Assembly (NCBI RefSeq): GCF_036013525.1
Contig: NZ_CP107853.1
Coordinates: 11,160,001-11,224,000 of the forward strand
Reading direction: 5' to 3'
Length of the DNA: 64,000 nucleotides
Origin: Nonomuraea sp. NBC_00507
Lineage (GTDB): Bacteria > Actinomycetota > Actinomycetes > Streptosporangiales > Streptosporangiaceae
In this document: positions 40,349-54,839 of the stretch, piece by piece
Numbering within the stretch: the first letter of the stretch is position 1
Layout: every line of letters starts with the position of its first letter
Translations under genes and position numbers: made by a program
The notes under the pieces: generated by a model
Told to the model about the DNA's origin: nothing
What the model saw: only the letters and a program-made list of their open reading frames with translations
Database searches by the model: none

Positions 40349-40451
40349 GGCGGCCTTCTTCACAACTGGAGAACTGGAGGTATCAACGGCATCAGTCTGC
40401 CACTCTGAGAGTGACCGAACTGCCACATCGAGTGATGTTCTAGGACGCACA

Positions 40452-42887
40452 GTGGACACGACCCGGGTGTCGAGCACGGCCTTCGACGGCACTCCCCATG
40501 CCCCGGCACATGCGCGCAAGTTCGTACGCCAGGTGCTCGGCGAATGGCGGCTGGGCCATCTGGCGGAGGACGCCGTGCTGCTGACCAGCGAACTCGTCAC
40601 CAACGCCGTGGTGCACGCGGGCACCGGCATCGAGCTGACCTGCCGACTGAACGTGGAGGCCATCCCGGCGAAGCTGGAGATCGAGGTCGACGACCACCAT
40701 CCGACGAGGACCATCGAGGAGGCCGAGGCCGTTCCTGCCGACACGATGCGCACCTCGGGGCGCGGGCTGGCGCTCGCGGGCATGCTGGCCGACGCCTGGG
40801 GCGTCACGTACACCAAGACCGCCAAGCGGGTCTGGGTACGCATGGAGCTCGGCGACGGCTTCGACCGGCAGGAGGCCCTGTCCGCCTCGCTCCCCATCGC
40901 CCCGCCCGTCGAGTCCCTGCATGTCGGCGTCATCGTCTGCGACCGCGACGGGGTCGTCGAGTCGTGGAACTCGGAGGCGGAGAAGCTGCTCGGCTGGCAG
41001 GCCGATGAGGTCGTCGGCGGGTCGCTGGAGAAGCTGGTCGCCTGGCGCGGCCACGGCCCGTACGCGCTCACCCTCGCCGACACGCTCGGCCTGGGCCGCT
41101 GGCGGGGCGAGGCCCGCATGCGGCACCTTGACGGCAGGATGATGCCCGTCTACGTCTCGCACCTGCGGGCACGGGGTCAGCGGTCGGCCATCTGGATGGT
41201 GGTGGCCGCCGACCACCGCTACGTCCTGACGCCGCCGCCCGCGCCGATGCGCAGGGAGGCGGGGCGGCGGATCAAGGACCTGCTGGACCAGGACATGCCG
41301 TTCGCGGAGCTGCTCGACACGATCGCGCAGATCGTCCAGGTCTCCAGCGGCGGCGACGCCGCGTACGTGCTGCTCTCGACCGACGGCGGCGACAGGTTCG
41401 GCGTGGCGGCGGGCGCCGGCGCGACGGCGGGATTGGTGGGGGTGCTGGCCACGGGCGTGTTCAGCGCCGACAGGAAGGCGCCCACAATGCTCGACGACCT
41501 GCTGGCCGAGGACGTCGAGCTGGCCGAGCAGCTGCGGGCCCGCTCGCTGGCGTGCGCGCCGCTGCTGGTGTCCGGGGAGGTGACCGGCTACATCGTGGTG
41601 ACGGCCACGCAGCCGGGGCGCTTCGACCAGGAGCTGACGGTCAGCCTGCAGCACATCGCCGACCAGGTGGCCGTGCCGGTGCAGCGCGAGCGGCTGGCCG
41701 AGGAGGACCGGGCGCACCGGGGGCGGCTGTCGTTCCTGGCCGAGGCGGGCGAGCTGCTCGCGGGCGTGCACGACGAGGAGTTGATCGCGGCGTTGACCGC
41801 GCAGCTCGTCGTCCCCAAGATCGCCACCTGGGCGGCGGTCTACCTGACCGATCTGGCGGGGATGACCAGGCTCGCCCACGTCTGGCACAGCGAGGAGCGG
41901 CACAACGCCGAGCTGCGCACGTTGTTGCCGGCCATCCCACGCACCGCGCTCACCGAGGTGAGCTGGCCGATCGGCCCGGAGACAGTGCTGTCGTTCCCGC
42001 TGCTCACCCAGGGCAGGTCGCACGGCGCCCTGGTGATCGGCCGCACCGAGCCGACCCTGCCGCTGGAGCTGGCCGACCTGCTGGCGGACCTGTGCCGGCT
42101 GGTGGCGCTCAACCTGCACACGGCCATGCTGTACGCCCGGCAGGCCACCACGTCGCGGGTGCTGCAGCGCAGCCTGCTGCCCATGCGCGTGGCCCCCATG
42201 CCGGGGCTGGAGTCGGCGGTCGTCTACGAGCCGGCCGAGGAGGGCGCCGACGTGGGCGGCGACTTCTACGACCTGTTCACGGTGGCCGACCACTGGTGCT
42301 TCGCGCTCGGCGACGTGTGCGGCAGCGGGCCCGAGGCGGCCGCGGTCACCGGGCTGGCCAGGCACGCCGTACGCCTGCTCGCCAAGGAGCACTACACGGT
42401 GGCCGACATCCTCGACCGGCTCAACCAGGCGCTGCTGGAGGAGGGCGAGGACGGCAGGTTCCTCAGCCTGCTGTGCGGCGAGCTGACCCCGCTCCCCCAC
42501 GGCGGCGCGCTGTGCACGCTCGCCTCGGCCGGCCATCCGCCGCCCCTGCTGCTGCGGGCGGACGGCACGGTCCAGGCGGTCGCGACGCCGCAGTTGCTGC
42601 TGGGCATCGAGGCGGACGCCAGGTTCTACGTCGAGACGTTCGAGCTGGCGCCCGAGGAGGTGCTGCTGTGCGTCACCGACGGCGTGACCGAGCGGCGCGA
42701 CGGCGACCGCCTGCTCGACGACGGCGACGGGCTGGCGGCGCTGCTGGCCGGCTGCACGGGGCTGAGCGCCCACGCGGTGGCCGAACGGGTGCGGCACGCG
42801 GTCGAGACGTTCGCCGCCGAGCCGTCGCAGGACGACGTCGCCCTGCTGGTGATCAAGGCCGCCCCGCTGCGGCAGGTCAGGACGTGA
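40452..42887 (+). CDS. osaC: OsaC-like multidomain regulator (HATPase, PAS, GAF, SpoIIE phosphatase)
   Basis: An 811-residue protein. The N-terminal RsbW-like kinase domain has N-box ELVTNAVVHAG and G-box GRGLALAGMLADAWG. A PAS domain (LHVGVIVCDRDGVVESWNSEAEKLLGW, about 155-255), GAF-like regions (about 280-560) and a C-terminal SpoIIE/PP2C domain (VGGDFYDLF, ALGDVCGSGPEAA, LCVTDGVTERRDGD, SQDDVALLVI) follow. It matches S. coelicolor OsaC, which returns SigB activity to basal level after osmotic stress. GTG at 40452 has AGGA about 6 bases upstream, and family similarity begins there. It is divergent from osaA, with a 103-base shared control region. Confidence 0.88.
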   Translation: MDTTRVSSTAFDGTPHAPAHARKFVRQVLGEWRLGHLAEDAVLLTSELVTNAVVHAGTGIELTCRLNVEAIPAKLEIEVDDHHPTRTIEEAEAVPADTMRTSGRGLALAGMLADAWGVTYTKTAKRVWVRMELGDGFDRQEALSASLPIAPPVESLHVGVIVCDRDGVVESWNSEAEKLLGWQADEVVGGSLEKLVAWRGHGPYALTLADTLGLGRWRGEARMRHLDGRMMPVYVSHLRARGQRSAIWMVVAADHRYVLTPPPAPMRREAGRRIKDLLDQDMPFAELLDTIAQIVQVSSGGDAAYVLLSTDGGDRFGVAAGAGATAGLVGVLATGVFSADRKAPTMLDDLLAEDVELAEQLRARSLACAPLLVSGEVTGYIVVTATQPGRFDQELTVSLQHIADQVAVPVQRERLAEEDRAHRGRLSFLAEAGELLAGVHDEELIAALTAQLVVPKIATWAAVYLTDLAGMTRLAHVWHSEERHNAELRTLLPAIPRTALTEVSWPIGPETVLSFPLLTQGRSHGALVIGRTEPTLPLELADLLADLCRLVALNLHTAMLYARQATTSRVLQRSLLPMRVAPMPGLESAVVYEPAEEGADVGGDFYDLFTVADHWCFALGDVCGSGPEAAAVTGLARHAVRLLAKEHYTVADILDRLNQALLEEGEDGRFLSLLCGELTPLPHGGALCTLASAGHPPPLLLRADGTVQAVATPQLLLGIEADARFYVETFELAPEEVLLCVTDGVTERRDGDRLLDDGDGLAALLAGCTGLSAHAVAERVRHAVETFAAEPSQDDVALLVIKAAPLRQVRT

Positions 42888-43812
42888 ACCTGTAGGTGGT
42901 GGTGGAGGTGCGGCGCTCGCCCGGCCGCAGCACGGTCGAGGGGAAGTGCGGCTGGTTGGGCGAGTCGGGGTAGTGCTGCGTCTCCAGGCACAACCCGGCG
43001 AACGGCCCGTACGGCGTCGCGACCCCGTCGAGCATGCTGCCCGTGTAGAACTGCACGCCCGGCTCGGTGGTGGTGACCTCCATGGTCAGGCCGCCGGCCG
43101 TGACCTGCATGCCGCCATCGAGGACGAAGCAGTGGTCGTAGGCGCCGTCGTAGCGCTCGGCGACGGCGTGTGGCTCGGTGAAGTCGAACAGCGTGCCCTT
43201 GACCGGCGCGAGCTCCCCGGTGGGGATCTTGTGCTCGTCCACCGGCAGGTAGTGCTCGGCCTCGAGGCGCACCACGTGGTCGCGTACGTCGCCGCTGCCG
43301 GCCAGGTTGAAGTAGGAGTGGTTGGTCAGGTTGACCACGGTCGGCGCGTCGGCCTCCATCGCGTAGTCGATGCGCAGCGCGTCGTCCGCCAGCGTGTAGG
43401 TGACCTGCGCGGTCAGCGTGCCCGGGTAACCCTGGTCGCCGTCGGGGCTGGTCAGCGTGAGCGTCACCGAGTCGCCGGAGAGGTCCTGGACGGTCCACAC
43501 CTTGCGGTCGAAGCCCTCGAGGCCGCCGTGCAGGCTGTTGAGGCCGTTGTTGATCGGTAGCCGGTACTCCACGCCGTCGAGGGTGAAGCGGCCGTTCGCG
43601 ATGCGGTTGCCGTACCTGCCGACGACCGCGCCGAAGTAGCGGCTGCGGGTCAGGTAGTCCTCCACCGAGTCGAGACCGAGCACGACGTTGCGGCCCGACA
43701 CCTCCAGCGAGCGCACGATGCACCCCAGGGTGAGCACTTCGGCACGCAGCCGTCCTGACGACAGCTCCACCTGCTCGACCTGCTCCCCCGACGGCAGCGT
43801 TCCGAAGATCAT
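42877..43812 (-). CDS. galM: Aldose 1-epimerase (galactose mutarotase)
   Basis: A 311-residue GalM. It has the conserved NRIANGRFTLDGVEYRLPINNGLNSLHGG, VVNLTNHSYFNLAG (catalytic His), YDHCFVLDG and Glu in GLCLETQHYPDSPNQPHFPS. It interconverts alpha and beta anomers of aldoses, making the form required by the next enzyme. ATG at 43812 has GGGAAGGG 7 bases upstream and an ATGA overlap with the lacI stop, so the two form an operon. The 3' end overlaps osaC by 11 bases, tail to tail. Its place beside the uronate genes suggests a role there (inference). Confidence 0.95.
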   Translation of the reverse strand: MIFGTLPSGEQVEQVELSSGRLRAEVLTLGCIVRSLEVSGRNVVLGLDSVEDYLTRSRYFGAVVGRYGNRIANGRFTLDGVEYRLPINNGLNSLHGGLEGFDRKVWTVQDLSGDSVTLTLTSPDGDQGYPGTLTAQVTYTLADDALRIDYAMEADAPTVVNLTNHSYFNLAGSGDVRDHVVRLEAEHYLPVDEHKIPTGELAPVKGTLFDFTEPHAVAERYDGAYDHCFVLDGGMQVTAGGLTMEVTTTEPGVQFYTGSMLDGVATPYGPFAGLCLETQHYPDSPNQPHFPSTVLRPGERRTSTTTYRFTS

Positions 43813-44771
43813 TTTTGCGCCCTTCCCGTGGACTCGCGAACTATGAGGGCGGTGTCGAGGGTCACTGTCGCGCCCTCGCCCCCCGACTGCAGCAGCAGAT
43901 CGACGGCCATCCTCCCAGCTGCCACGGCGGGCATGGCCACCGTGGTCAGCTTGGGCCGGTTGAGCCGGCCCGGCAGGATGTCGTCGAACCCGATGACACT
44001 TATCTGGTCTGGTACCCCTATCTCCATCGCGGTCAGCCCCTCGATCAGGCCAAGCGCGACGAGATCGTTGTACGCCAGCACGGCGGTCGCCCCGCAGGCC
44101 GCCACGTCCGCGGCCACGGCCAGGCCCCCCGACTCCGTGGGCTGGTTGGGGCCGAAGAAGACGAGGTCGAGCCCCGGCGCCTCGGCGGCGACGCCCTGCA
44201 TCTCGTTGCTGGTCCACGAGCCGATCGGGCCCGACACGAGGGCGATCCTGCGGTGGCCGAGCCCGGTCAGGTGCTCCAGGGCGAGCTTGGCGCCCTGGGC
44301 GACGTTCATGAGCACCGCGGGCATGCCCTTGATCCGGCGGTTGATCACCACGAACGGCACGTCCTCGGCCAGGCGCTCGATCATCCGGTTGGACAGGCGG
44401 GGGCTGCACAGCAGGACGCCGTCCACCTGCTTGGTGAACGTCCTGATCAGCTCCTCCTCCACCCGCGGGTCCTCGTCGGTGTCGGCCACGAACACGTGGT
44501 AGTCGCGGCCCCTGGCCTGCGCCTGGGCGGCCTTGATGAGCGGCGGGAAGAACGGGTTGGAGATGTCGGCCACGATGAGGCCCATGTTGAACGTGCGTCC
44601 CGTCGTGAGCGCCCTGGCCGCCCGGTTGGGGCGGTAGCCGAGGTCGTCCGCGACGGCCATCACCTTGCTCCTGGTGGCAGGATTGACCAGGTGCGGTGCG
44701 GAGAAGGTGCGCGACACGGTGGACACGTGGACGCCGCAGGCGCGCGCCACGTCTTTGATCGTCGCCGTCAT
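43809..44771 (-). CDS. LacI family transcriptional regulator
   Basis: A 320-residue repressor. The N-terminal HTH is TIKDVARACGVHVSTVSRTFSAPHLVNPATRSKVMAVADDLGYRPNRAARALTTGRT, followed by a periplasmic-binding-protein-like sugar domain (NMGLIVADISNPFFPPLIKAAQAQARGRDYHVFVADTDED). ATG at 44771 has GGGAGG 6 bases upstream. Two LacI-type operators lie upstream, so it likely represses its own lacI-galM operon. The effector is probably a sugar or uronate from this cluster. Confidence 0.95.
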   Translation of the reverse strand: MTATIKDVARACGVHVSTVSRTFSAPHLVNPATRSKVMAVADDLGYRPNRAARALTTGRTFNMGLIVADISNPFFPPLIKAAQAQARGRDYHVFVADTDEDPRVEEELIRTFTKQVDGVLLCSPRLSNRMIERLAEDVPFVVINRRIKGMPAVLMNVAQGAKLALEHLTGLGHRRIALVSGPIGSWTSNEMQGVAAEAPGLDLVFFGPNQPTESGGLAVAADVAACGATAVLAYNDLVALGLIEGLTAMEIGVPDQISVIGFDDILPGRLNRPKLTTVAMPAVAAGRMAVDLLLQSGGEGATVTLDTALIVRESTGRAQK

Positions 44772-44783
44772 CGCCGTCCTCCC

Positions 44784-44800
44784 TTGCAAACGGTTGCCAA
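44784..44800. promoter_or_regulatory. LacI-type operator O1
   Basis: TTGCAAACGGTTGCCAA is a near-palindrome centred on a CG step, the common LacI/GalR box. It lies 13 bases upstream of the lacI start and so probably within its leader. Confidence 0.75.
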
Positions 44801-44868: not shown

Positions 44869-45663
44869 TTACCAGGAGCCGCCCAGCTCGTTGAGCGTGA
44901 AGACGCCGCCCGCCCGGTCGTGGATCGGCTGCGCCAGATCCGGCTCGCCGTGCTCGGCGATCAGCGCCGGCGCGAACGACTCGGAGTCGTCCCGGGAGAC
45001 GTACCCGAGGGAGGTGGCCTCCTCCAGCGACCACCACCGCCGCGTGTTGTCCGAAACCCCCCAGACGACGTGATACCCGGGCGCCACCAGCGCGGCCTCC
45101 ACGAGACGGGTCAGGTCGTCGGGCGAGATCCAGGTCGCCAGCCCACGGGTGTCGAGTGGCCCCTCGTTGCAGGTGCCGAGCCGGACAACGGTGATGTCCA
45201 TGCCGAACCGGTCATGGTAGAGGCCGGCCAGCGCCTCCATGACGACCTTGCTGACCCCGTAGTAGGTGTCGGGCCGCGGAAAGGCGTAGTCCGGCAGGTC
45301 CTCGCCGTCCGCCGGGCGGGTGTGGAAGCCGGCGGCGTGGTGACTGCCCATGAGCACGAGGTGCTGGACGCCCTCCTGACGCGCCGCCTCCAGCAGCACC
45401 TGCATGCCGTTGATGTTGGCGTGCACGATGTCGACCCAGGGACGCTCCCGGCTCTGGCCGCCCAGGTGGAGCACCGCGTCCACGCCCTTCATCGCCTCTG
45501 CCATGGCGGCGGGGTCGGCGAGGTCGGCCGTCACCCATTCCTCCCCCGGGCCGGTCTCCACCGTCTGGAGGTCGGAGAGCCGCAGGATGCGGCCCTCGCG
45601 GGCGAGCCGCGGGCGGAGCAGCGTGCCGACTTTCCCCGCGGCACCGGTCATGAGAATGCGCAT
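44869..45663 (-). CDS. udh: Uronate dehydrogenase (SDR family)
   Basis: A 264-residue extended-type short-chain dehydrogenase. The NAD-binding GAAGKVG is at 7-13, and the catalytic YxxxK is Tyr135-Lys139 (TYYGVSK). SHHAAGFHTR, RLGTCNEGP and the short length match the Udh family. It oxidises D-glucuronate or D-galacturonate to the aldarolactone with NAD+. ATG at 45663 gives the family start MRILMTGAAG; no ribosome site precedes it, suggesting a leaderless or weakly translated message. Two candidate IclR boxes lie 12 and 31 bases upstream. The downstream pathway enzymes are encoded at 49.7-53.6 kb. Confidence 0.9.
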   Translation of the reverse strand: MRILMTGAAGKVGTLLRPRLAREGRILRLSDLQTVETGPGEEWVTADLADPAAMAEAMKGVDAVLHLGGQSRERPWVDIVHANINGMQVLLEAARQEGVQHLVLMGSHHAAGFHTRPADGEDLPDYAFPRPDTYYGVSKVVMEALAGLYHDRFGMDITVVRLGTCNEGPLDTRGLATWISPDDLTRLVEAALVAPGYHVVWGVSDNTRRWWSLEEATSLGYVSRDDSESFAPALIAEHGEPDLAQPIHDRAGGVFTLNELGGSW

Positions 45664-45674
45664 GCATCCATGGT

Positions 45675-45709
45675 GTACACGATTCTGACTGAAATTCACA
45701 TCCTTGAAT
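45675..45709. promoter_or_regulatory. Paired candidate IclR boxes at udh
   Basis: GTACACGATTCTGACT (45675-45690) and ATTCACATCCTTGAAT (45694-45709) fit the pattern RTNCA-N6-TGRNY. They start exactly 19 bp apart, the same spacing as the pairs at the importer, iclR and gudD control regions. Confidence 0.55.
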
Positions 45710-45751
45710 ATTGACCGTGATGCATACGTGTAGTTACGTTCACACCCACGA

Positions 45752-45786
45752 GTTCAAAATCCGGACTCATGTCCACGTATGTGAAC
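45752..45786. promoter_or_regulatory. Paired candidate IclR boxes at the importer operon
   Basis: GTCCACGTATGTGAAC (45771-45786) is a 16-bp inverted repeat (GTCCA/TGAAC half-sites) touching the ribosome site of the binding-protein gene. A partner GTTCAAAATCCGGAC starts at 45752, again 19 bp away but with a spacer one base shorter. Confidence 0.55.
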
Positions 45787-45799
45787 GGGAGGCGGTCTG

Positions 45800-47110
45800 A
45801 TGTCACGTCGCTTGCTCGGGACCGCGATCATCGCGTCCCTGGCCGTAACGCTGACAGGCTGCGGTTCCGGGGGATCATCAGCTACTGACGACACGTTGGA
45901 GATCTGGATCAGGCAGGCGCCCGATTCCGACTCCGCCAAGACGGCGAAAAAGCTCGCCGACGCATTCACCCAGGCCAGCGGTGTCAAGACGAAAGTCGTG
46001 GCCCTCTTCGACGATTTCGAGACCAAGCTCAACCAGCAGGCCGCCCAGAAGCAGCTTCCTGACATCGTCATCAACGACACCGCCCAGCTCGGCAACATGC
46101 AGTCGCAGGGCTGGTTAAGAGAGGTCGACAAGGCCTCGCTGGCCGGCGGCGACAAGCTGTCGGACCGGGCGTGGAGCGCTGCCACCGGCAGCGACGGCAA
46201 GGTGTACGCCGCCCCGTTCTCGGCTCAGGCGTTCGCGCTGATCGTCCGCAAGGACTGGCGCGAAAAGCTGAAGATGGAGCCGCCGCAGACGTGGGAGGAC
46301 CTCGCCAAGCTGGGCACCGCGTTCACCGAGAACGACCCCGACGGCAACGGCCAGAAGGACACCAGCGGCTTCGTCATCCCCGCCGGCACCAAGCGCGGCT
46401 ACGCCTCCTGGTACGCCTCGTCGCTCATCTACGGCAACGGCGCCGACTTCCTCAAGGCAGCCGGTCCCGGCAAGTACACGGCCACCGCCAACGACCCCAA
46501 GTTCGTGGAGGCCGTCCAATACCTGCAGGACCAGTTCTGCAAGTCCAAGACCGTCAACCCCGGCGCGGTCAGCAACGACACGACCGTCACGCACGAGGTG
46601 TTCGAGAAGGGCCAGGGCGGCATCTATCTCGTCGGCCCGTACGTGCTGGCCCGTTTCGTCAAGAGCATCGGCACCGACAAGATCGAGGTCCTGCCCGTGC
46701 CCAAGGGCCCGTCCGGCGGCCCCGGCACCCTCGGCGAGGGCGAGAACGTCTACATGATGGTCGGCTCGTCCATGGAGGACGCCCAGAAGAAGTTCGCCGA
46801 GTACGCGATCTCCCCCGAAGGCCAGAAGATCGGCATGAACAAGGACGCCAACGGCGCCATCGTCCGCCTGCCGGTCAACACCACCGTGGACATGGCCGCC
46901 GAGCGCCAGGACCCGCGCTGGAAGGTGTTCCAGGAATCGTACGAGTTCGCCGTGTACGCCCCGCCGGTGCCGAACTGGGCGCCCATCCGCCAGACCTCCG
47001 CCGACGCCATCAACACGGTCTGGGCCGACTGCACGGCTGACGTGAAGACGGCGATGGACGGGCTCAACACCAAGCTCACCCAGGAACTGCAGAGCCAGAA
47101 AGCGTCATGA
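45800..47110 (+). CDS. Sugar ABC transporter substrate-binding lipoprotein (uronate cluster)
   Basis: A 436-residue CUT1 family-1 solute-binding protein with signal peptide and lipobox LTGC (Cys21). The ligand-binding fold begins LEIWIRQAPDSDSAKTAKKLADAFTQASG. GGGAGG lies 7 bases before the ATG. The context predicts uronic acids or uronate-containing oligosaccharides as substrate, but binding residues cannot confirm it. The stop overlaps the first permease start (ATGA). No ATPase gene is present, so a shared ATPase is expected. Confidence 0.92.
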   Translation: MSRRLLGTAIIASLAVTLTGCGSGGSSATDDTLEIWIRQAPDSDSAKTAKKLADAFTQASGVKTKVVALFDDFETKLNQQAAQKQLPDIVINDTAQLGNMQSQGWLREVDKASLAGGDKLSDRAWSAATGSDGKVYAAPFSAQAFALIVRKDWREKLKMEPPQTWEDLAKLGTAFTENDPDGNGQKDTSGFVIPAGTKRGYASWYASSLIYGNGADFLKAAGPGKYTATANDPKFVEAVQYLQDQFCKSKTVNPGAVSNDTTVTHEVFEKGQGGIYLVGPYVLARFVKSIGTDKIEVLPVPKGPSGGPGTLGEGENVYMMVGSSMEDAQKKFAEYAISPEGQKIGMNKDANGAIVRLPVNTTVDMAAERQDPRWKVFQESYEFAVYAPPVPNWAPIRQTSADAINTVWADCTADVKTAMDGLNTKLTQELQSQKAS

Positions 47111-48033
47111 CGTCGACCCTCACCCGGGCCGGGGCCCGGACAGCGCCCCCGCACCGCCGCACCAAATCGGTGCGGTGGCGGGGGTCGCTGATCGCGTGGC
47201 TGTTCCTGGCACCGGCGTTGCTGCTGTTCCTGTACTTCAAGTTCATCCCGATGGCCCTAGGCCTGTGGAAGAGCTTCCACGAGGTCCACTACATCACTGA
47301 CACGTGGGTGGGCCTGGACAACTACAAGACGATCCTCACCGACGACGCGTTCGGCGCCGCCATCTGGCACAGCATCCTGCTGGCGCTCGGCACCACGATC
47401 GGCTCGCTCGTGCTCGGGCTCGGGTTCGCGCTGCTCATCGAGGGTCCGGCCCGGTATCTGTGGTTCGTCAGGACGGCGGCGTTCCTGCCCGTCGTGACCA
47501 CGATGGCGGCCGTGGCCGAGGTGTGGCGGATCATGTTCCACCCGGCCGACAGCGGCATGCTCAACACGATCATCGGCTGGGTGGGCGTCGATCCGCAGCC
47601 GTGGCTGGCCAGCGAGAACTCCTCGCTCTGGTCGATCATGCTGATGAGCATCTGGCGCGGCACCCCGTACGACATGATGATCTTCCTGGCCGGGCTGGTC
47701 GGCGTGGACCGCACGCTCTACGAGGCGGCGGCCGTGGACGGCGCCTCCACGTGGCGGCGGCTGCGGCACATCACGCTGCCGGCGCTGCGGCCGGTGTTCT
47801 GGATCCTGTTCACGCTGGCCGCCATCCGCGGGCTGCGGGTGTTCGTCGAGGTCTACGTGCTCACGAACGGCGGTCCCAACGGGTCGTCCGAAGTGCTGAT
47901 GACCTTGATCTACAAGCTCGGGTTCCAGTCGAACGAGCTGGGGGTCGCCTCGGCGGGCGGGATCGTGTTGTTCCTGGCCACGCTGGCGCTCACCGTGGTC
48001 GTGCAGTTGTTGCGCAGGAGGCAGGCGGCATGA
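47107..48033 (+). CDS. Sugar ABC transporter permease, MalF-like (uronate cluster)
   Basis: A 308-residue CUT1 permease with an Arg-rich N-terminus, six TM helices beginning LIAWLFLAPALLLFLYFKFIP, and the EAA loop at TLYEAAAVDGASTWRRLRHITLPALRP. The ATG overlaps the preceding stop in ATGA, and the stop overlaps the next permease start. It forms half of the pore. Confidence 0.93.
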   Translation: MTSTLTRAGARTAPPHRRTKSVRWRGSLIAWLFLAPALLLFLYFKFIPMALGLWKSFHEVHYITDTWVGLDNYKTILTDDAFGAAIWHSILLALGTTIGSLVLGLGFALLIEGPARYLWFVRTAAFLPVVTTMAAVAEVWRIMFHPADSGMLNTIIGWVGVDPQPWLASENSSLWSIMLMSIWRGTPYDMMIFLAGLVGVDRTLYEAAAVDGASTWRRLRHITLPALRPVFWILFTLAAIRGLRVFVEVYVLTNGGPNGSSEVLMTLIYKLGFQSNELGVASAGGIVLFLATLALTVVVQLLRRRQAA

Positions 48034-48890
48034 GGTTCGACAGCGCTCTGGGGTTGGAGTCGCGCAGAGGGCCTGTGGCCATCACCGGAAAGGTCATCCT
48101 TTATGGCCTCATGGTGATCGTTTTCACCGGACCTCTGGTGGGGTTGCTGATCAGCGCGTTCAGCAAGACCCTTGACCCGACGTCGTTCACGCTGTGGCCG
48201 GAGGAGTTCACGCTGGAGAACTTCGTCCAGGCCAAGGACAAGAACGTCTACCTCTACCTGCTCAACTCGTTCATCGTCGTGGGCTTCGGGCTGCTGCTGC
48301 AGATGCTGGTGAGCGTCTTCGCCGCGTACTCGCTGGCCCGCAAGAAGTTCCGTGGCATGACGTTCGTGATGCTGCTCATGCTCGCCACGATGATGCTCCC
48401 CGAGGAGATCATCGCGATCCCGCTGTCCCTCGTCCTGGCCGACATGCCGGTGTTCCACACCAACCTCATCGGCACGTACGCCGGAATGATCCTCCCGGTC
48501 GGGGCGTGGGGCTTCTCGATCCTGGTCATGACCGAGTTCATGAAGGAGGTGCCGGTCGAGCTGGAGGAGGCCGCGCGCATCGACGGCGCCGGCGAGCTGC
48601 GGATCTTCGCCACGATCATCGTGCCGTTGTGCCGCCCCGCGCTCGGCGTGATCGGCGTCTTCGGTTTCACGATGATCTGGGACCAGTATCTGCTGCCGTT
48701 GATCGTCGCGCCCCAGTCGGACATGTGGACGTTGCCCATCGCGCTGCGCTCGCTCCGCTCCGACGAGGAGGTCGGGATCGGTGTGCTGCTCGCTGCCTCG
48801 CTGCTGGCGCTCCTGCCGTCGATCATCGCGTTCCTGGCGTTCCAGCGGCAGTTCATGCGTGGTCTGACAAGCGGCGCGGTCAAGGGTTAA
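48030..48890 (+). CDS. Sugar ABC transporter permease, MalG-like (uronate cluster)
   Basis: A 286-residue CUT1 permease with about six TM helices and the EAA loop at VELEEAARIDGAGELRIFATIIVPLCRPALG. It ends RGLTSGAVKG, as most MalG-type subunits do. AGGAGG lies 8 bases upstream of the ATG, which also overlaps the previous stop in ATGA. Confidence 0.93.
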   Translation: MRFDSALGLESRRGPVAITGKVILYGLMVIVFTGPLVGLLISAFSKTLDPTSFTLWPEEFTLENFVQAKDKNVYLYLLNSFIVVGFGLLLQMLVSVFAAYSLARKKFRGMTFVMLLMLATMMLPEEIIAIPLSLVLADMPVFHTNLIGTYAGMILPVGAWGFSILVMTEFMKEVPVELEEAARIDGAGELRIFATIIVPLCRPALGVIGVFGFTMIWDQYLLPLIVAPQSDMWTLPIALRSLRSDEEVGIGVLLAASLLALLPSIIAFLAFQRQFMRGLTSGAVKG

Positions 48891-48892
48891 GC

Positions 48893-48927
48893 GTCCATGT
48901 ATCTGGACGCTATCCCATATCCTGGAT
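48893..48927. promoter_or_regulatory. Paired candidate IclR boxes at iclR
   Basis: GTCCATGTATCTGGAC (48893-48908) is a clean inverted repeat with GTCCA/TGGAC arms. ATCCCATATCCTGGAT (48912-48927) follows 19 bp later with ATCC/GGAT arms. They sit between the importer operon stop and the iclR start, well placed for autoregulation. Confidence 0.6.
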
Positions 48928-48954
48928 CTTTGAAGCCGCAGGGCACGAGATGGG

Positions 48955-49722
48955 ATGAGCATGGAGCCCCAGCTGGTCAAGTCCGCCGAGCGGACGGTAC
49001 GCATCCTGGAAGTCCTGGCCGAGTCGCACGACACGTTGACGCTGTCGGAGCTCCAGCAGCGCACCGGGTTCCCGCGCAGCAGCCTGCACGCCCTCATGCG
49101 CACGCTGGTCGAGCTCAACTGGGTCGAGACCGACTCCGGCAGGTCCGCGTTCGGGATCGGGCCGCACGCGCTGCTGACCGGCACCGCATACCTGGACAAG
49201 GATCCCGCGCTGCCGTTCGCGCAGGAGATGCTGGAGGACCTGCGGGACGAGATCGGGCGTACGGTGCACTTCGCCCGCAGGGACGGCGCGCACGTACTCT
49301 ACCTGGCGACCAGGGAGTCGCGCGAGGCCGCGCACGTGATCCCCAGAGTGGGCCGGCGGCTGCCCGCCCACGTCACGGCGCTCGGCCAGGTGCTGCTCGC
49401 CCAGCTCACCGACGACGAGGTCGTGGCGCTGCTGCCGCATCCCCTGGTCTCGCTCACCGAGCACACGATCACCGACCTGGCCAAGCTCACCGGCGAGCTG
49501 GACCAGGTCCGCACCAGGGGCTGGTCCTACGAGCGCGAGCAGGGCACGCCCGGCGTGGCCTGCGTGGCCGTGGCGGTCGACTACCGCATTCCGGCCACGG
49601 ACGCGATCAGCTGCTCCATGCCTGCCGGTCTCCCGCCCGCCGACGTCGAGCGGATCACCGAAGCGTTGATCAAACACACCCGCAAGCTGGCTGCCACTCT
49701 GCGCAGGGAGGGCATCCGCTAG
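48955..49722 (+). CDS. IclR family transcriptional regulator
   Basis: A 255-residue IclR protein with winged helix (SAERTVRILEVLAESHDTLTLSELQQRTGFPRSSLHALMRTLVELNWVE) and the C-terminal GAF-like effector domain (YLATRESREAAHVIPRVGRRLPAHVTALGQVLLAQL, PGVACVAVAVDY). Lying between importer and kdgD, it is the likely specific regulator of uronate or aldarate catabolism. IclR proteins bind as dimers or tetramers to paired sites, matching the paired repeats found here. ATG 48955 or ATG 48961 could be the start. Confidence 0.94.
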   Translation: MSMEPQLVKSAERTVRILEVLAESHDTLTLSELQQRTGFPRSSLHALMRTLVELNWVETDSGRSAFGIGPHALLTGTAYLDKDPALPFAQEMLEDLRDEIGRTVHFARRDGAHVLYLATRESREAAHVIPRVGRRLPAHVTALGQVLLAQLTDDEVVALLPHPLVSLTEHTITDLAKLTGELDQVRTRGWSYEREQGTPGVACVAVAVDYRIPATDAISCSMPAGLPPADVERITEALIKHTRKLAATLRREGIR

Positions 49723-49734
49723 AAAGGACTGCTG

Positions 49735-50640
49735 ATGCGGCTAGATGGTGTTCTCTTCTTTCCGGTGACCCCCTTCGGGGCCGATGGGGAGCTGGCCGAA
49801 CCGGTGCTCGCCCGCCACGTCGCCGACGGGGTCGCGGCCGGGGCGGGAGGAGTGTTCACCGCGTGCGGCACCGGTGAGTTCAACGCCCTCGATCTCGGCG
49901 AATACAGCCGGGTGGTGGCCACGGCCGTCGCCGCCACCGAGGGGCGCGCCCCCGTCTTCGCCGGGGCCGGCGGCACGTTGCCCGCCGCCAAGGCGATCGC
50001 CCGCGCCGCTGCCGCCCAAGGCGCCGACGGGCTGCTGCTGATGCCTCCCTACCTGGTCACCGGCCCCGCCTCCGGCCTGGTCCGGTATGTGCGGGAGGTG
50101 GCCGAGACCGTCGAGCTGCCGATCATCGTCTATCAGCGGGGAACCGCACGCTTCACGCCCGAGGCCGTGGCGTCGCTGGCGCAGCTGCCCAACGTCGTGG
50201 GCTTCAAGGACGGGCTCGGCGACTTCGACCTGCTGCAGCGCATCATCCTGACCGTGCGGCAGTCCACCGACCAGGAGTTCACCTTCTTCAACGGCCTGCC
50301 GACCGCCGAGTTCACCGTGCCCGCGTACCGGGGGATCGGGGTGAGCCTGTATTCGAGCGCGGTGTTCGCGTTCGCGCCCGAGATCGCCCTCGCCTTCTAC
50401 AAGGCCGTGACCGGCGGGGACGAGGTGCTGGTGCAGCGGTTGCTCACCGGGTTCTACCTGCCGCTGGTGGAGCTGCGGGACACCGTGCCCGGCTATGCGG
50501 TCTCGCTGGTGAAGGCAGGGGTGCGGCTGCGCGGGCTGGACGTCGGGGGTGTGCGGGCGCCGCTCATGGATCCGTCGCCTGAGCATGTGGCGGTGCTGGA
50601 GCGGCTCATCGCCACCGGACTGGAGATCGCCGGGGCCTGA
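49735..50640 (+). CDS. kdgD: 5-dehydro-4-deoxyglucarate dehydratase
   Basis: A 301-residue DapA-superfamily TIM barrel. The Schiff-base Lys168 is in VVGFKDGLGD, the catalytic Tyr133 in IIVYQRGTARF, and the GTGE carboxylate-binding loop at 45-48 (ACGTGEFNAL). The start LDGVLFFPVTPF and the absence of DapA-specific Arg favour KdgD. It dehydrates and decarboxylates 5-keto-4-deoxyglucarate to 2-oxoglutarate semialdehyde. AAGGA lies 6 bases before the ATG, 12 bases after iclR. The last 58 bases of the gene are repeated twice beyond the stop. Confidence 0.93.
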   Translation: MRLDGVLFFPVTPFGADGELAEPVLARHVADGVAAGAGGVFTACGTGEFNALDLGEYSRVVATAVAATEGRAPVFAGAGGTLPAAKAIARAAAAQGADGLLLMPPYLVTGPASGLVRYVREVAETVELPIIVYQRGTARFTPEAVASLAQLPNVVGFKDGLGDFDLLQRIILTVRQSTDQEFTFFNGLPTAEFTVPAYRGIGVSLYSSAVFAFAPEIALAFYKAVTGGDEVLVQRLLTGFYLPLVELRDTVPGYAVSLVKAGVRLRGLDVGGVRAPLMDPSPEHVAVLERLIATGLEIAGA

Positions 50641-50754
50641 GCAGGTCGCGACGCTCGAGCGGCTCGCCGCCACCGGACTGGAGATCGCCGGAGCTTGAGC
50701 AGGTCGCGGCGCTCGAGCGGCTCATCGCCACCCGGCTGGAGACCGCCGGAGCCT
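50581..50754 (+). repeat. Three tandem 58-bp copies of the kdgD 3' end
   Basis: Units at 50581-50638, 50639-50696 and 50697-50754 share GAGCGGCTC and GCCGCC-type cores and about 85% identity. The first lies inside kdgD and encodes EHVAVLERLIATGLEIAGA. The TGA stop is created at the junction of copies one and two, and since 58 is not a multiple of three the later copies are out of frame and untranslated. Confidence 0.93.
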
Positions 50755-50762
50755 GGCGATGC

Positions 50763-50794
50763 GCCTGGAGGCGGCATCGACGCCGCCTCCAGGC
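50763..50794. terminator. Bidirectional terminator-like hairpin
   Basis: GCCTGGAGGCGGC and GCCGCCTCCAGGC form a perfect 13-bp stem with a 6-base loop. It lies between the convergent kdgD and aldehyde dehydrogenase genes. There is no long T run, as is common in high-GC actinomycetes. Confidence 0.85.
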
Positions 50795-50803
50795 CTACGC
50801 GCT

Positions 50804-52273
50804 TCACACCTGCAGACGCCCATCCACCCGTCGCGGAATGGAGAGCGGGTTGTCATCCTTCAGCTCGTCCGGCAACAACGCCCCCGGCCAGTCCTGGTAT
50901 GCGGTCGGCGCCAGCCAGCGGTCGATGGCCGTGGCCCCGACGGAGGTGTGCGTCGTCGTGGCGGCAGGCCAGGGGCCTCCGTGCTGCATCGCCCAGCACA
51001 CGGCCACACCGGTCGGCCACCCGTTCCAGATGAGCCGCCCGGCCCTCCTCCTGAGCACCTCCACGACCTCACCGGCCTCGTCGGTGTCGGTGCCGTGGAC
51101 GGTGGCGGTCAGCGAGCCGTCCAACCGCTCGAGCACGGGCCGCAGATCGGAAATTTCCCGATATGTCACCACGATCGACGCAGGCCCGAAGCACTCCTCG
51201 CCGATGTGCGGCAGCTTCCCGGCGAAGGTGTCCAGATCCGTGGTGAACACCTTCGGCGTGACGGCCCAGGCGCCCTCGCCCGGCTTGCCCTCGGCCAACA
51301 GCTGCAGCTCGCCGAGCCGTTCGACCCCGCCCAGATACCCGTCCCTGATCCGCTCGGCCAGCATGGGCCCGCCGCTGGTCCCCTCGACGGCCTCCACCAG
51401 GGCCTTGCGCAGCTCGTCGCCCTCGGGCACGAACATGAGCCCGGGATTCGTGCAGAACTGCCCGACTCCCAGCGTCAGCGACCCGGCGAACCCGGCGGCC
51501 ACTCCCTCCACCGGCGCCGACGGCAGCACGACCACGGGGTTGACGCTGCCCAGCTCGCCGAAGAACGGGATCGGCACTTCCCGCTCGTCGATCAGCTTCT
51601 GGATCGCCTTCCCGCCGGCCACGGACCCGGTGAACCCGGCCGCGACCACCGACGGGTGCTGCACCAGGTCGATGCCCGCCTGCATGCCCTGCACGAGGCC
51701 CAGCAGGTCCGGGTACGGGAGCGCGTCCCGCACGATCTTCGCGACCCGCTCGGAGGTGTTGGGATGACCGGGATGCGCCTTGACGACCACCGGGCAGCCC
51801 GCGGCCAGCGCGGAGGCGGTGTCGCCGCCGGCCACGGAGAACGCGAACGGGAAGTTGCTGGCCGAGAACACGGCGACGACGCCGGACAGCGGATGCTTCA
51901 TCCGCCGCACGTCGGGCCGGGGCGGCGTGAGCGACGGGTCGGCGTGGTCGATGATGGCCTCGACGTACGCGCCGTCCCTGAGAACCTGGGCGAAGAGCCT
52001 GAACTGCCCGGCGGTGCGCGCGACCTCGCCGCGCAGACGTACCTCGCCGAGCGCGGTCTCCTCGTCGGCGAGCTGCCACAGCTCGTCCACGTGCGCGGCC
52101 AGGGCGTCGGCGACCGCCTCGAGCGCGATCGCGCGCTCGGCCGCCGGCGTCGACCGCCAGGCCTGGCCGGCCGCGGCCGCGGCAGAAACGACCATGTCGA
52201 CCCCGGCGCTGTCGGTCTCTTGCAGGGCGGCGCCCACGGTCTCGCCGGTCCTGGGGTCGTGTCCGTAGATCAT
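50804..52273 (-). CDS. 2-oxoglutarate semialdehyde dehydrogenase (aldehyde dehydrogenase superfamily)
   Basis: A 489-residue NADP-type aldehyde dehydrogenase of the KGSADH group. It has FSASNFPFAFSVAGGDTASALAAGCPVVVKAHPGHP (cofactor and Asn-Lys residues), GFTGSVAGGKAIQ, catalytic Glu in FFGELGSVNPVVVLP and nucleophile Cys in GQFCTNPGL. It oxidises the KdgD product to 2-oxoglutarate, feeding the TCA cycle. ATG at 52273 has GAAGGG 8 bases upstream. It is divergent from gudD, with paired IclR-box candidates between them. Confidence 0.92.
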   Translation of the reverse strand: MIYGHDPRTGETVGAALQETDSAGVDMVVSAAAAAGQAWRSTPAAERAIALEAVADALAAHVDELWQLADEETALGEVRLRGEVARTAGQFRLFAQVLRDGAYVEAIIDHADPSLTPPRPDVRRMKHPLSGVVAVFSASNFPFAFSVAGGDTASALAAGCPVVVKAHPGHPNTSERVAKIVRDALPYPDLLGLVQGMQAGIDLVQHPSVVAAGFTGSVAGGKAIQKLIDEREVPIPFFGELGSVNPVVVLPSAPVEGVAAGFAGSLTLGVGQFCTNPGLMFVPEGDELRKALVEAVEGTSGGPMLAERIRDGYLGGVERLGELQLLAEGKPGEGAWAVTPKVFTTDLDTFAGKLPHIGEECFGPASIVVTYREISDLRPVLERLDGSLTATVHGTDTDEAGEVVEVLRRRAGRLIWNGWPTGVAVCWAMQHGGPWPAATTTHTSVGATAIDRWLAPTAYQDWPGALLPDELKDDNPLSIPRRVDGRLQV

Positions 52274-52333
52274 CGAATGGCCCTTCGGAGTCTTGACACT
52301 TCTTCAGCCCGATTCTTACAGTTTTGGCAACTT

Positions 52334-52368
52334 GTCCACAAATCTGGCTATTGTTCACATATATGGAC
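52334..52368. promoter_or_regulatory. Paired candidate IclR boxes at the dehydrogenase/gudD divergon
   Basis: GTCCACAAATCTGGCT (52334-52349) and GTTCACATATATGGAC (52353-52368) start 19 bp apart. The second has near-perfect GTTCA/TGGAC arms and spans the in-frame ATG at 52363, which supports the later gudD start at 52378. Confidence 0.6.
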
Positions 52369-52377
52369 GGCGGTCGT

Positions 52378-53634
52378 ATGATCATCAGGGAGATCCGCGT
52401 CACACCCGTTGCCTTCCGGGATCCGCCCCTTCTGAACGCCGCCGGGGTCCACGAGCCGTGGGCCCTCCGTACCATTGTCGAGGTCGTCACGGACGAGGGC
52501 CTGACCGGCCTCGGTGAGACGTACGGCGATCTCGAGCACCTCGGCAGGGTGCGTGAGTGCGCGCAGGCCCTGATCGGGCTCGACGTGCACGCCGTGAACA
52601 CGATGTACGCCCGGATCAACGCGCTCGTCGGTGAAGTGGTGACCGATCTGCACGGCCTGACCGGCGTCGCCACCAAGGAGAAGAGCGTCGACCGGGTCTT
52701 CGCCGCCTTCGAGGTGGCCTGCCTGGACATTCGCGGCAAGGCGGCCGGTGTGCCGGTCGTCGACCTGCTCGGCGGCCGGGTCAGGGACGCGGTGCCGTAC
52801 AGCGCGTATCTCTTCTACAAGTGGGCCGGCCACCCGGGCGAGGAGCCGGACAAGTTCGGCGCGGCACTGGACGAGGCGGGCGTTGTCGAGCAGGCCGCGC
52901 TCCTGATCAAGGAGTATGGCTTCAAGTCGATCAAGCTCAAGGGCGGCGTCTTCCCGCCCGATCAGGAGATCGCCGCGACCAAGGCCCTGCACGAGGCGTT
53001 CCCCGGCGTGCCGCTCCGCCTGGACCCCAACGCCGCCTGGTCGGTCGAGACCTCGATCCGGGTCGGCCGCGAACTCGAAGGCACCCTCCAGTACCTGGAG
53101 GACCCGACGCCCGGCATTCCCGGCATGTCCGAGGTCGCCGCCGCCGTCCCCATGCCCCTCGCCACGAACATGTGCGTGGTCACCCCCGAACACCTGCCAC
53201 CCGCCATCACCTCCCGCGCGATCGGGGTCCTCCTCCTGGACCACCACTACTGGGGCGGACTCGTACGTTCCGCGCATATCGCCACCCTCTGCGACACCTT
53301 CGGGCTGTCGCTGTCCATGCACTCCAACTCCCACCTCGGCATCAGCCTGGCCGCCATGACCCACCTGGCCGCCGCCACCCCGAACCTCACCTTCGCCTGC
53401 GACACCCACACCCCGTGGCAGGACGGGCAGGACGTGGTCGTGCCGGGCAGCCTCCGCTTCACCGACGGGGCCGTCCCCGTCCCCAGCGGCCCCGGCCTGG
53501 GCGTGGAGCTCGACCGGGACGCGCTGGCCCGCATGCACGAGCAGTATCAGAAGTGCGGGATCGTGGCGCGTGACGACACGACGTACATGCAGCGGTTCGA
53601 GCCTGGCTTCACGGCGGCGAGGCCGCGGTGGTGA
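52378..53634 (+). CDS. gudD: Glucarate dehydratase (enolase superfamily)
   Basis: A 418-residue GlucD. KxK is K186-L-K188, the metal ligands are D216 (RLDPNAAW), E241 (YLEDPTPG) and N264 (LATNMCV), and the catalytic His315 is in MHSNSHLGIS with its Asp in LLLDHHYWGG. The N-terminal capping domain begins MIIREIRVTPVAFRDPPLLNAAGVHEPWALRTIVEV. It converts D-glucarate to 5-keto-4-deoxyglucarate. ATG at 52378 is preferred over ATG 52363 because of the overlapping operator and the family N-terminus; GGCGG lies very close. Confidence 0.92.
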   Translation: MIIREIRVTPVAFRDPPLLNAAGVHEPWALRTIVEVVTDEGLTGLGETYGDLEHLGRVRECAQALIGLDVHAVNTMYARINALVGEVVTDLHGLTGVATKEKSVDRVFAAFEVACLDIRGKAAGVPVVDLLGGRVRDAVPYSAYLFYKWAGHPGEEPDKFGAALDEAGVVEQAALLIKEYGFKSIKLKGGVFPPDQEIAATKALHEAFPGVPLRLDPNAAWSVETSIRVGRELEGTLQYLEDPTPGIPGMSEVAAAVPMPLATNMCVVTPEHLPPAITSRAIGVLLLDHHYWGGLVRSAHIATLCDTFGLSLSMHSNSHLGISLAAMTHLAAATPNLTFACDTHTPWQDGQDVVVPGSLRFTDGAVPVPSGPGLGVELDRDALARMHEQYQKCGIVARDDTTYMQRFEPGFTAARPRW

Positions 53635-53705: not shown

Positions 53706-54839
53706 ATGAACATCGCCTACGTCTACCCCTGGGACGTCGTCGGCGACCCTTCCGCCCCCGAGCGCCTGGCCGCGCTGGGCGTGGACGCGGTCGCCCTGGC
53801 GGCCGTCTACCACTCCACCCGGGCCGCCACGCCGTACCATCCGTCCCATCGCGTCCTGGACGTGCCCTATCCGGCCTTCTACCTCCCGGTACGCCCGTCC
53901 GCCTGGGGCCGCCTCGTCCCGGCCGCCCCCACGTGGACCCCCGCAGACGCCTACCTCCAGGCCAGGGACGCGCTGAAGGCCGTCGGCCTCCCCGTCCACG
54001 CCTGGACCGTCCTCACCCACAACTCCCACCTGGGCGCCGCCCATCCCGACCTGGTCGTACGCAACGCCTTCGGCGACCCGTACCCGTACGCACTGTGCCC
54101 GGCCCACGAGGACGTCATCGAGTACTGCGAACGTCTCGTCCAGGAGATCCTGACGGTCGGCGAGCCGGACGGCCTGATCCTGGAAGCCTGCGGACCGCTC
54201 GGCTTCGGGCACCAGAGCGTGCACGAGAAGACCTCCGGAGCGGACTGGACCTCCGTGGACGCGGACCTGCTGTCCCTGTGCTTCTGCGAGGCATGCGCCC
54301 CCCGCTACCCCGAACCCACCCGAACCCAGGTGCGCGCGGCGATAGACCGCACGGGCGACATGTCGGCCCCCCAACCCACCACCGTGGAGGAGGCCCTCGG
54401 CCCGGTGGCGGACGAGGTCCTCGCCATCCGCGTAGGCCTGTCCACCTCCCTCAGGGAACGTCTGATCGCCGTATCCCGAAGGACCGCCCCGAACGTCCCC
54501 ATCACCCTGCACGCCAACCCGGACCCGTGGGCGGCCGGCGCCTTCGCCCCGCTCCCCGCGGGCGAGCCGGGAGCGGACGCGCTGGTGGCCAACTGCTGGG
54601 GCGACCCGTCCACGGACGCCACCCGCCTCACCCGCCTTACGGAGCTGTCCCGTGCGGGCCAGCGAGTAGGCGCCTATGTCCTCGCCCTCCCACCCCGCCC
54701 CGCCGACGCAGCCGTCCTGACCGACCACCTGAGGACGTACGCCAAGGCAGGCGCGACAGAGTTCCACCTGTACCACGCTGGGCTCGCCTCCCGAGAACGC
54801 CTGACCGCCCTCACGGAGGCCCTTCGCCAGATCACTTAG
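53706..54839 (+). CDS. Uncharacterised TIM-barrel, glycoside-hydrolase-like protein
   Basis: A 377-residue soluble protein with an alternating strand/helix pattern resembling putative glycosyl-hydrolase barrels. It begins MNIAYVYPWDVVGDPSAPERLAALGVDAVALAAVYHSTRAATP. A CFCEACAPRYPEP segment near residue 195 recalls the C-x-C-x2-C motif of hypothetical GHL-type families, where it may bind metal. Possible catalytic acids include LILEACGPLGFGHQ. There is no signal peptide, so it acts in the cytoplasm. AGGAG lies 9 bases before the ATG. Its position after gudD suggests a role in uronate or uronoside breakdown, but function is unknown. Confidence 0.7.
   Translation: MNIAYVYPWDVVGDPSAPERLAALGVDAVALAAVYHSTRAATPYHPSHRVLDVPYPAFYLPVRPSAWGRLVPAAPTWTPADAYLQARDALKAVGLPVHAWTVLTHNSHLGAAHPDLVVRNAFGDPYPYALCPAHEDVIEYCERLVQEILTVGEPDGLILEACGPLGFGHQSVHEKTSGADWTSVDADLLSLCFCEACAPRYPEPTRTQVRAAIDRTGDMSAPQPTTVEEALGPVADEVLAIRVGLSTSLRERLIAVSRRTAPNVPITLHANPDPWAAGAFAPLPAGEPGADALVANCWGDPSTDATRLTRLTELSRAGQRVGAYVLALPPRPADAAVLTDHLRTYAKAGATEFHLYHAGLASRERLTALTEALRQIT

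Follow-up and report, generated by a model that had tools for sequence, protein, structure and literature searches.

Paired sites at a 19-bp offset as predicted operators of the IclR-family regulator in a Nonomuraea sugar-acid cluster

In a 64-kb stretch of the 12.9-Mb genome of Nonomuraea sp. NBC_00507 (the window, contig positions 11160001–11224000), the gene for an IclR-family protein (iclR) lies among genes for sugar-acid uptake and oxidation. Pairs of related 16-bp sites are found before udh (uronate dehydrogenase), before the solute-binding protein gene of an importer (sbp), before iclR itself and between the divergent genes for an aldehyde dehydrogenase (ALDH) and a glucarate-dehydratase-like enzyme (gudD). 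This arrangement raises the question of whether one regulator acts at all four promoters and whether the spacing within the pairs is part of what it recognizes. Judged from the sequence, the four pairs are predicted operators of the cluster's own IclR-family repressor, a reading to which we assign a probability of about 0.8. Binding by IclR, occupancy by a tetramer, repression as the sign of control and the nature of the inducer are what we infer from these sites and their setting.

Strong palindromes and their 19-bp partners

All eight 16-mers were found at the coordinates given in Table 1, every pair being offset by exactly 19 bp. Compared with GTYCA-N6-TGRAC (10 fixed positions), one site of each pair is strong, with no mismatch at 45771, 48893 and 52353 and two at 45694, and its partner carries three mismatches (45675, 45752 and 48912) or two (52334). 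With a position weight matrix (PWM) trained on the strong sites of the orthologues together with those of the window, the best other site in the 64 kb reached 11.3 bits (at 22255) and the next 8.5 bits once the eight sites were excluded. The initial annotation had described four pairs of 16-bp inverted repeats. The four strong sites, the coordinates and the 19-bp start-to-start distance are as it gave them, but the partners are degenerate, and since it is mainly their outer TGRAC arm that is conserved, "16-bp inverted repeat" describes them loosely.

The loose consensus alone proves nothing about spacing, as the window contains many matches and no excess of pairs at 19 bp. At two mismatches 145 matches were counted against 69.1 expected from shuffles; at three mismatches the window has 950 sites, which form 10 pairs with a 19-bp spacing, fewer than the average of 15.7 for spacings from 10 to 60. 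A spacing test of this kind, in which 19 is not enriched over other spacings, was rejected. When the search is anchored on the strong sites, the 19-bp partners are not due to chance: among the 90 partner positions compared for every strong site in the window (16–60 bp on either side), the one at offset 19 comes out best in all four cases.

The same geometry was followed through orthologous loci. The IclR protein search gave 80 named loci, the best 80 of 137: 47 from Streptosporangiaceae (L031–L076 and L104) and 33 more distant, many of which we take, from their genus names, to be Micromonosporaceae. The nearest named locus is that of Nonomuraea sp. G32, with 99% identity of the IclR protein. 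Across all loci there are 497 sites with at most one mismatch, of which 37 have a partner (at most two mismatches) at −19 and 19 have one at +19; no other offset occurs more than 11 times. These loci are related and not independent. Offsets were ranked over distinct orthologous rows with a PWM built solely from the other promoters, a leave-one-promoter-out test that is not circular. Rows without a site of at most two mismatches in the expected range were left out (udh 2/46, sbp 1/46, gudD 7/41, iclR 0/48) and near-identical rows were collapsed. Of 116 offsets compared in the Streptosporangiaceae, 19 ranks first at sbp (21 rows), iclR (30 rows) and gudD (19 rows), and second at udh (30 rows), where the first rank is taken by offset 6, which overlaps the strong site. 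In the distant set, where the test covered sites that score above 11 bits and lie no farther than 200 bp from the gene (20 at sbp, of 21 loci with that gene, and 19 at udh, of 22), the partner is kept at sbp with rank 1/106 (12 distinct rows).

The conserved part of the partner could be specified by counting half-sites in a set further restricted to rows that deviate from RTYCA-N6-TGRAY at one position at most. With each pair oriented so that the strong site comes first, +19 is the best offset for a further TGRAC half at every one of the four promoters (mean matches 3.83, 3.75, 3.59 and 4.89 of 5), and at none of them is it the best offset for a further GTYCA half, which indicates that the partner is a degenerate palindrome with its outer arm kept. 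At sbp and gudD the outer arm is conserved above the inner arm, of which remnants (YC, ATCC) remain visible.

Conservation, specificity and the regulator

A strong site lies 5′ of iclR in all 48 Streptosporangiaceae rows, the window included, and 29 of the 33 distant loci have a match above 11 bits upstream of some cluster gene, the exceptions being L099, L101, L103 and L108. Over 713 kb, the PWM gave 188 matches of at least 12 bits. Apart from L035:9973 (23.9 bits) and L070:1705, all of them (186) fall no more than 260 bp upstream of cluster genes. No match of at least 12 bits was found in 392 kb of matched coding sequence. Because the PWM was trained on such sites, this upstream clustering shows specificity and not independence. 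The gudD site was not seen in the stretch read of L037, and the gudD pick in L073 is misplaced. At udh at least one pick, that of L069, resembles a chance match, and a better palindrome lies beyond the range searched.

Genome-wide, a pair model (R1, 35 positions) was built from 45 of 59 pair rows (alignment A2; the 14 left out have shifted or doubtful sites or are near-duplicates), and a single-site model (R2, 16 positions) from 33 rows (alignment A4), six of which are reverse complements of other rows. In the own genome, 150 of 2058 (R1) and 150 of 3170 (R2) first-look candidates were scored. The four pairs are the top four R1 matches, with E values of 4.1e-5, 1.7e-4, 2.8e-4 and 2.45e-3; they are followed by other-strand partials of two of the same sites (0.31 and 0.49) and only then by a separate locus (E = 1.08). 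R2 gave cluster sites only at E ≤ 10. Within the scanned candidates the sites are thus at the regulator's own promoter and adjacent operons, with few or none elsewhere, the pattern of a local autoregulator.

All 54 genomes of the genus, the own genome included, have an R1 match at E ≤ 1, and 53 of them at E < 0.003. The remaining one (G013) has a single pair match at E = 0.26 and lacks a close IclR (its best-scoring match has 36% identity), consistent with the model. A close IclR is missing from genome G019 too, which is 63% complete; with two pair matches (best E 8.8e-5), it neither supports nor weakens the assignment. Genome G012, with strong operators and no close IclR (33% identity at best among the top matches), was considered as an IclR-free counter-example and rejected, because contig C63 stops at 21909, which is about 1.3 kb past the sbp operator and short of the expected iclR position.

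The protein encoded at 48955–49722 exceeds the Pfam gathering scores of both HTH_IclR (N-terminal) and IclR_C (C-terminal) and is an IclR-family member. Its recognition helix, PRSSLHAL, is identical in 47 of 47 near loci and in 28 of 33 distant ones (six rows are column-shifted in these counts). In the Table 5 numbering of Suvorova and Gelfand (2021; PMC8222616) the protein carries Ser30, Ala33 and Lys1, equivalent to S43, A46 and K9 by alignment to TtgV Pro46 in a register set by the analyst. Ser30 and Ala33 (strong) and Lys1 (weak) fit the published preferences of IclR proteins with even-length motifs, and the strongly preferred Pro1 is absent. The earlier claim of a single regulator is supported by these comparisons: the conserved site before iclR, its recurrence before cluster genes in distant loci and the fit of the helix make this IclR protein the most likely candidate.

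Three Streptomyces loci with PRSSLYAL (L101, L103 and L108) are without the usual site; L103 instead has a perfect palindrome, GTCTACGTACGTAGAC, near the gene, and L101 and L108 have related imperfect sequences. L099 has PRSSLHAL and no site, its match beginning at residue 30 and no other cluster gene being found there. A subgroup with PKSSLYML (L170, L171 and L173–L187; 17 loci of one genus) has a different palindrome, of GTTCGATATNCTGAAC type, before the gene in 16 of 17 loci, L175 having a variant; TGRAY at +19 matches 5/5 positions in all 16 rows found, the loci being close relatives and not independent. In L093, a second IclR-type gene with PRSSLYAL (L093:3796) stands beside a divergent solute-binding-protein-like open reading frame (ORF) and a strong site, with a PRSSLHAL copy in the same locus.

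The series PRSSLHAL with GTYCAY..RTGRAC, PRSSLYAL with GTCTAC..GTAGAC (one clear case, L103) and PKSSLYML with GTTCGATATNCTGAAC could mean that the 19-bp phase is fixed and the base code moves, the arrangement of a strong palindrome, a gap of 3 bp and a partner with a kept outer arm persisting while the palindrome shifts with the helix. We regard this as a tentative idea, more doubtful than probable. If true, weakness of the degenerate partner would be maintained as a means of adjusting tetramer cooperativity, and specificity might be switched at residue 45 (His or Tyr). Two observations speak against a simple His/Tyr switch: the PRSSLYAL gene of L093 adjoins the site GTCCACGTATGTAGAC, one arm of which is GTCCAC, and the PKSSLYML group also has Tyr at residue 45 with a different half-site.

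A proposed mechanism and its alternatives

We propose that one IclR dimer would bind the strong 16-bp palindrome and that a second dimer, aided by the first, would bind 19 bp away, about two turns of DNA, recognizing the degenerate site mainly through its outer TGRAC arm. IclR would thereby repress its own gene, udh, the sugar-acid importer and the glucarate genes until an acid of the pathway, probably uronate, glucarate or 5-keto-4-deoxyglucarate, releases it. At iclR, the strong site occupies the place expected for a −35 box and the partner covers the predicted −10 box; a repressor bound there would prevent initiation and give autoregulation. The order of sites is the same at udh. At sbp and gudD the pair starts about 9–12 nt downstream of a conserved TTGAC-type promoter, where binding would block promoter escape or elongation. 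The predicted iclR −10 box ends 7 nt before the ATG in L060, L073, L075 and L076, which suggests a leaderless iclR message in those loci.

Several observations weigh against this proposal. Three of the four partners score near or below zero bits and would be weak alone. Orthologous sites, among them those of the near-identical strain L031, served to train the PWM and the models, so that PWM scores, the 713-kb scan and the genome scan are partly circular. The gudD site is absent upstream in L068–L072 and L074. At distant udh loci the 19-bp partner was not found (ranks 5 and 12 of 106; 17 rows), which means that a partner is not obligatory at every target; recurrence of the geometry in orthologous clusters, as the initial annotation expected, was borne out at sbp, iclR and gudD and, at second rank, at udh in the Streptosporangiaceae, but not at udh in the distant set. 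The iclR partner overlaps the −10 box, which selection would preserve anyway (46/48 rows). Finally, few candidates were scored genome-wide and R2 misses the udh site, so weaker targets elsewhere are possible.

Some of these points would be expected if the strong palindrome were the sole operator and the 19-bp partners were core promoter elements (−10 boxes or the start region) resembling an operator by chance: the iclR partner does include TATNCT in 46 of 48 rows, the partners are weak by PWM and distant udh loci show none. What makes this explanation unlikely is the layout of the other promoters. In 43 of 45 sbp rows (those in the six commonest layouts, with boxes picked by a scoring script), a TTGAC-type −35 element is followed by a spacer of 17–18 nt and a TA...T −10 box, which lies 9–12 nt before the partner. 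At gudD, the hexamers are the same in 34/34 rows and the gap to the partner is 10–11 nt in 33 of them, the other row being L073 with its misplaced pick. The predicted −10 boxes are therefore upstream of the partners at both promoters, and offset 19 still ranks first. The sbp partner, moreover, recurs in distant loci at the first rank, and in the PKSSLYML subgroup TGRAY stands at +19 next to another palindrome in every row found.

The conservation of the outer TGRAC arm above the inner arm at sbp and gudD would also fit an operator of the PcaU type, that is, a palindrome plus one extra half-site bound through alternative dimerization, and PcaU, PobR and HmgR are described as having an extra direct half-site in the main text of Suvorova and Gelfand (2021; PMC8222616). 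The published three-box sites, however, alternate in box direction (PMC8222616), whereas the best extra half here repeats the right arm in the same direction at 19 bp and remnants of the inner arm are visible; we consider a three-box operator improbable. Least probable is a different regulator acting on the palindromes, such as the LacI-family protein encoded at 43809–44789. Its gene adjoins the cluster here and in many Nonomuraea loci, but among the 33 distant loci only one has a LacI match at 1e-20 (L088, 40% identity; flanks of about 8 kb or less) while 29 have the palindrome, and GTYCA-N6-TGRAC is of the published IclR group 1 type (PMC8222616). The tandem IclR operators remain the preferred reading.

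Cluster genes and relation to known systems

The gene set suggests, from the gene families present, uptake and an oxidative route from uronate or glucarate towards 2-oxoglutarate (Table 1). Two products fall short of the stricter equivalog models: the dehydratase at 49735..50640 scores 303.5 against the cut-off of 373.95 of the KdgD equivalog TIGR03249, and the gudD product is far below the NCBIfam GudD equivalog cut-off (254.9 against 828.7), although entries labelled probable glucarate dehydratase are among its nearest relatives of solved structure.

Table 1. Genes, predicted operator sites and predicted promoter elements of the cluster. Bits are PWM scores; positions are those of the window.
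Feature	Position	Strand	Evidence and remarks
udh, uronate dehydrogenase	44869..45663	−	four PDB sequences, 1.8e-55 to 1.3e-50, 3/4 named uronate dehydrogenase
Secondary degenerate site, udh promoter	45675..45690		0.8 bits; offset 19 rank 2/116; outer arm TGTAC (minus strand) conserved
Primary palindrome, udh promoter	45694..45709		ATTCACATCCTTGAAT; 20.1 bits; ≤2 mismatches in 44/46 rows (automatic pick)
Predicted sbp promoter, TTGACC-N18-TACGTT	45711..45740	+	ends 11 nt before secondary site; best by scoring script
Secondary degenerate site, sbp promoter	45752..45767		−0.7 bits; offset −19 rank 1/116, 1/106 in distant loci
Primary palindrome, importer (sbp) promoter	45771..45786		GTCCACGTATGTGAAC, directly 5′ of GGGAGG; 25.6 bits; ≤2 mismatches in 45/46 rows
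sbp, importer solute-binding protein	45800..47110	+	NCBIfam MalE-type match, below cut-off
Importer permeases	47107–48033, 48030–48890		downstream of sbp; BPD_transp_1
Primary palindrome, iclR promoter	48893..48908		GTCCATGTATCTGGAC; 22.5 bits; ≤2 mismatches in 48/48 rows
Secondary degenerate site, iclR promoter	48912..48927		holds predicted −10 box; −4.1 bits; offset 19 rank 1/116
Predicted iclR −10 box, TATCCT	48918..48923	+	TATNCT here in 46/48 rows, inside partner
iclR, IclR-family regulator, proposed binder	48955..49722	+	HTH_IclR 1.7e-16, IclR_C 2.7e-33; helix PRSSLHAL
5-dehydro-4-deoxyglucarate dehydratase, KdgD type	49735..50640	+	3′ of iclR; NF002958 412.3 bits, above cut-off 278
ALDH	50804..52273	−	Aldedh 3.8e-50
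Predicted gudD promoter, TTGACA-N18-TACAGT	52293..52322	+	ends 11 nt before secondary site
Secondary site, ALDH/gudD, best of four partners	52334..52349		12.4 bits; offset −19 rank 1/116
Primary palindrome, ALDH/gudD intergenic region	52353..52368		GTTCACATATATGGAC; 27.4 bits; perfect to consensus in 33/41 rows
gudD, glucarate-dehydratase-like enolase-superfamily enzyme	52378..53634	+	PDB 3vc5 6.6e-222; 3vdg "probable glucarate dehydratase" 1.4e-176

Beside gudD, a 377-aa protein (53706–54836) gave no Pfam or NCBIfam match at E 0.001 and has tblastn matches in many orthologous clusters, at 38%–48% identity at the lowest in the distant set; it is a conserved unknown of the glucarate cluster. 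At 50590–50750 the 3′ end of kdgD is followed by apparently two more imperfect copies of its final stretch, a local tandem duplication past the stop codon. Elsewhere in the window, a very long ORF on the minus strand (36332–41119), with many near-identical repeats and a kinase-like end that is presumably of HAMP type, overlaps a divergent regulator-like ORF (40347–42887, plus strand) at the latter's 5′ end; the listed start of the long ORF is probably too far upstream.

Some of the distant loci have additional strong sites in front of genes that do not belong to the cluster; these genes encode a GH28 protein (L093:4939), a BNR_4 protein (L081:11031), a glycerate kinase (L077:12845) and CBM2 proteins (L087:12283 and L094:12038; one with a β-helix). 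ORFs resembling the BNR_4 gene by eye were seen at L080:11007 and L077:15609. The extra sites before genes of polysaccharide-active proteins hint at uronate polymers as the natural substrate.

No publication on this regulon was found in the openly licensed literature, which is not proof that there is none. The words "glucarate", "uronate" and "Streptosporang" are absent from the main text of PMC8222616, whose supplementary regulog lists may include this group. The regulon may be new; the spacing rule is already known for the IclR family. In the main text of Suvorova and Gelfand (2021; PMC8222616), tandem palindromic sites are predicted for 94 of 181 IclR orthologous groups, with centers 18–22 nt and mainly 19–21 nt apart, and are explained by tetramers on one face of the DNA. 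The 19-bp geometry is thus the usual one, and the initial annotation was mistaken in calling the operator rule uncommon; its reading of the pairs as sites for dimers of dimers would agree with the published view. The picture of the IclR family is unchanged. What is gained is a specific operator set for a regulator that apparently controls uronate and glucarate use across Nonomuraea and related actinomycetes, a possible source of sugar-acid biosensors and a small natural series, made up of groups that differ in helix and palindrome, for the study of IclR specificity.

Among published motifs, the palindromes are by eye of the group 1 type, GKTYCRYW3-4RYGRAMC (PMC8222616): the promoter consensuses GTCCACGTATGTGAAC, GTCCATGTATCTGGAC, GTTCACATATATGGAC and ATTCAAGGATGTGAAT have TYCRY...RYGRA-type arms, from which single core and arm letters depart. 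The even-length motif NGTYCRAW4TYGRACN is closest, with the same length and outer arms, but here the inner letters are CAY in place of CRA and G occurs at some core positions. The centers are 19 nt apart at four promoters and conserved, within the published 18–22 nt, but the second copy is here strongly degenerate. As in the systems described there, the own gene and its neighbors would be regulated, and genes for sugar acids and aldehyde dehydrogenases, common in the even-length subgroup, are likewise present (PMC8222616). PcaU, PobR and HmgR, also of the IclR family and with a palindrome plus an extra half-site, differ in serving aromatic catabolism and in their alternating three-box sites (PMC8222616). 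A parallel in arrangement is GylR of Streptomyces clavuligerus, likewise an IclR-family repressor of a catabolic operon and of its own gene (PMC9732521). Its two footprints, of 47 bp each, extend from +11 to +57 downstream of the start and from −17 to −63 over the promoter, the two kinds of position proposed here. GylR differs in its 18-bp palindrome, GGTCGGCATTGTCGAACA, in its effectors, glycerol-3-phosphate and dihydroxyacetone phosphate, and in controlling glycerol genes (PMC9732521).

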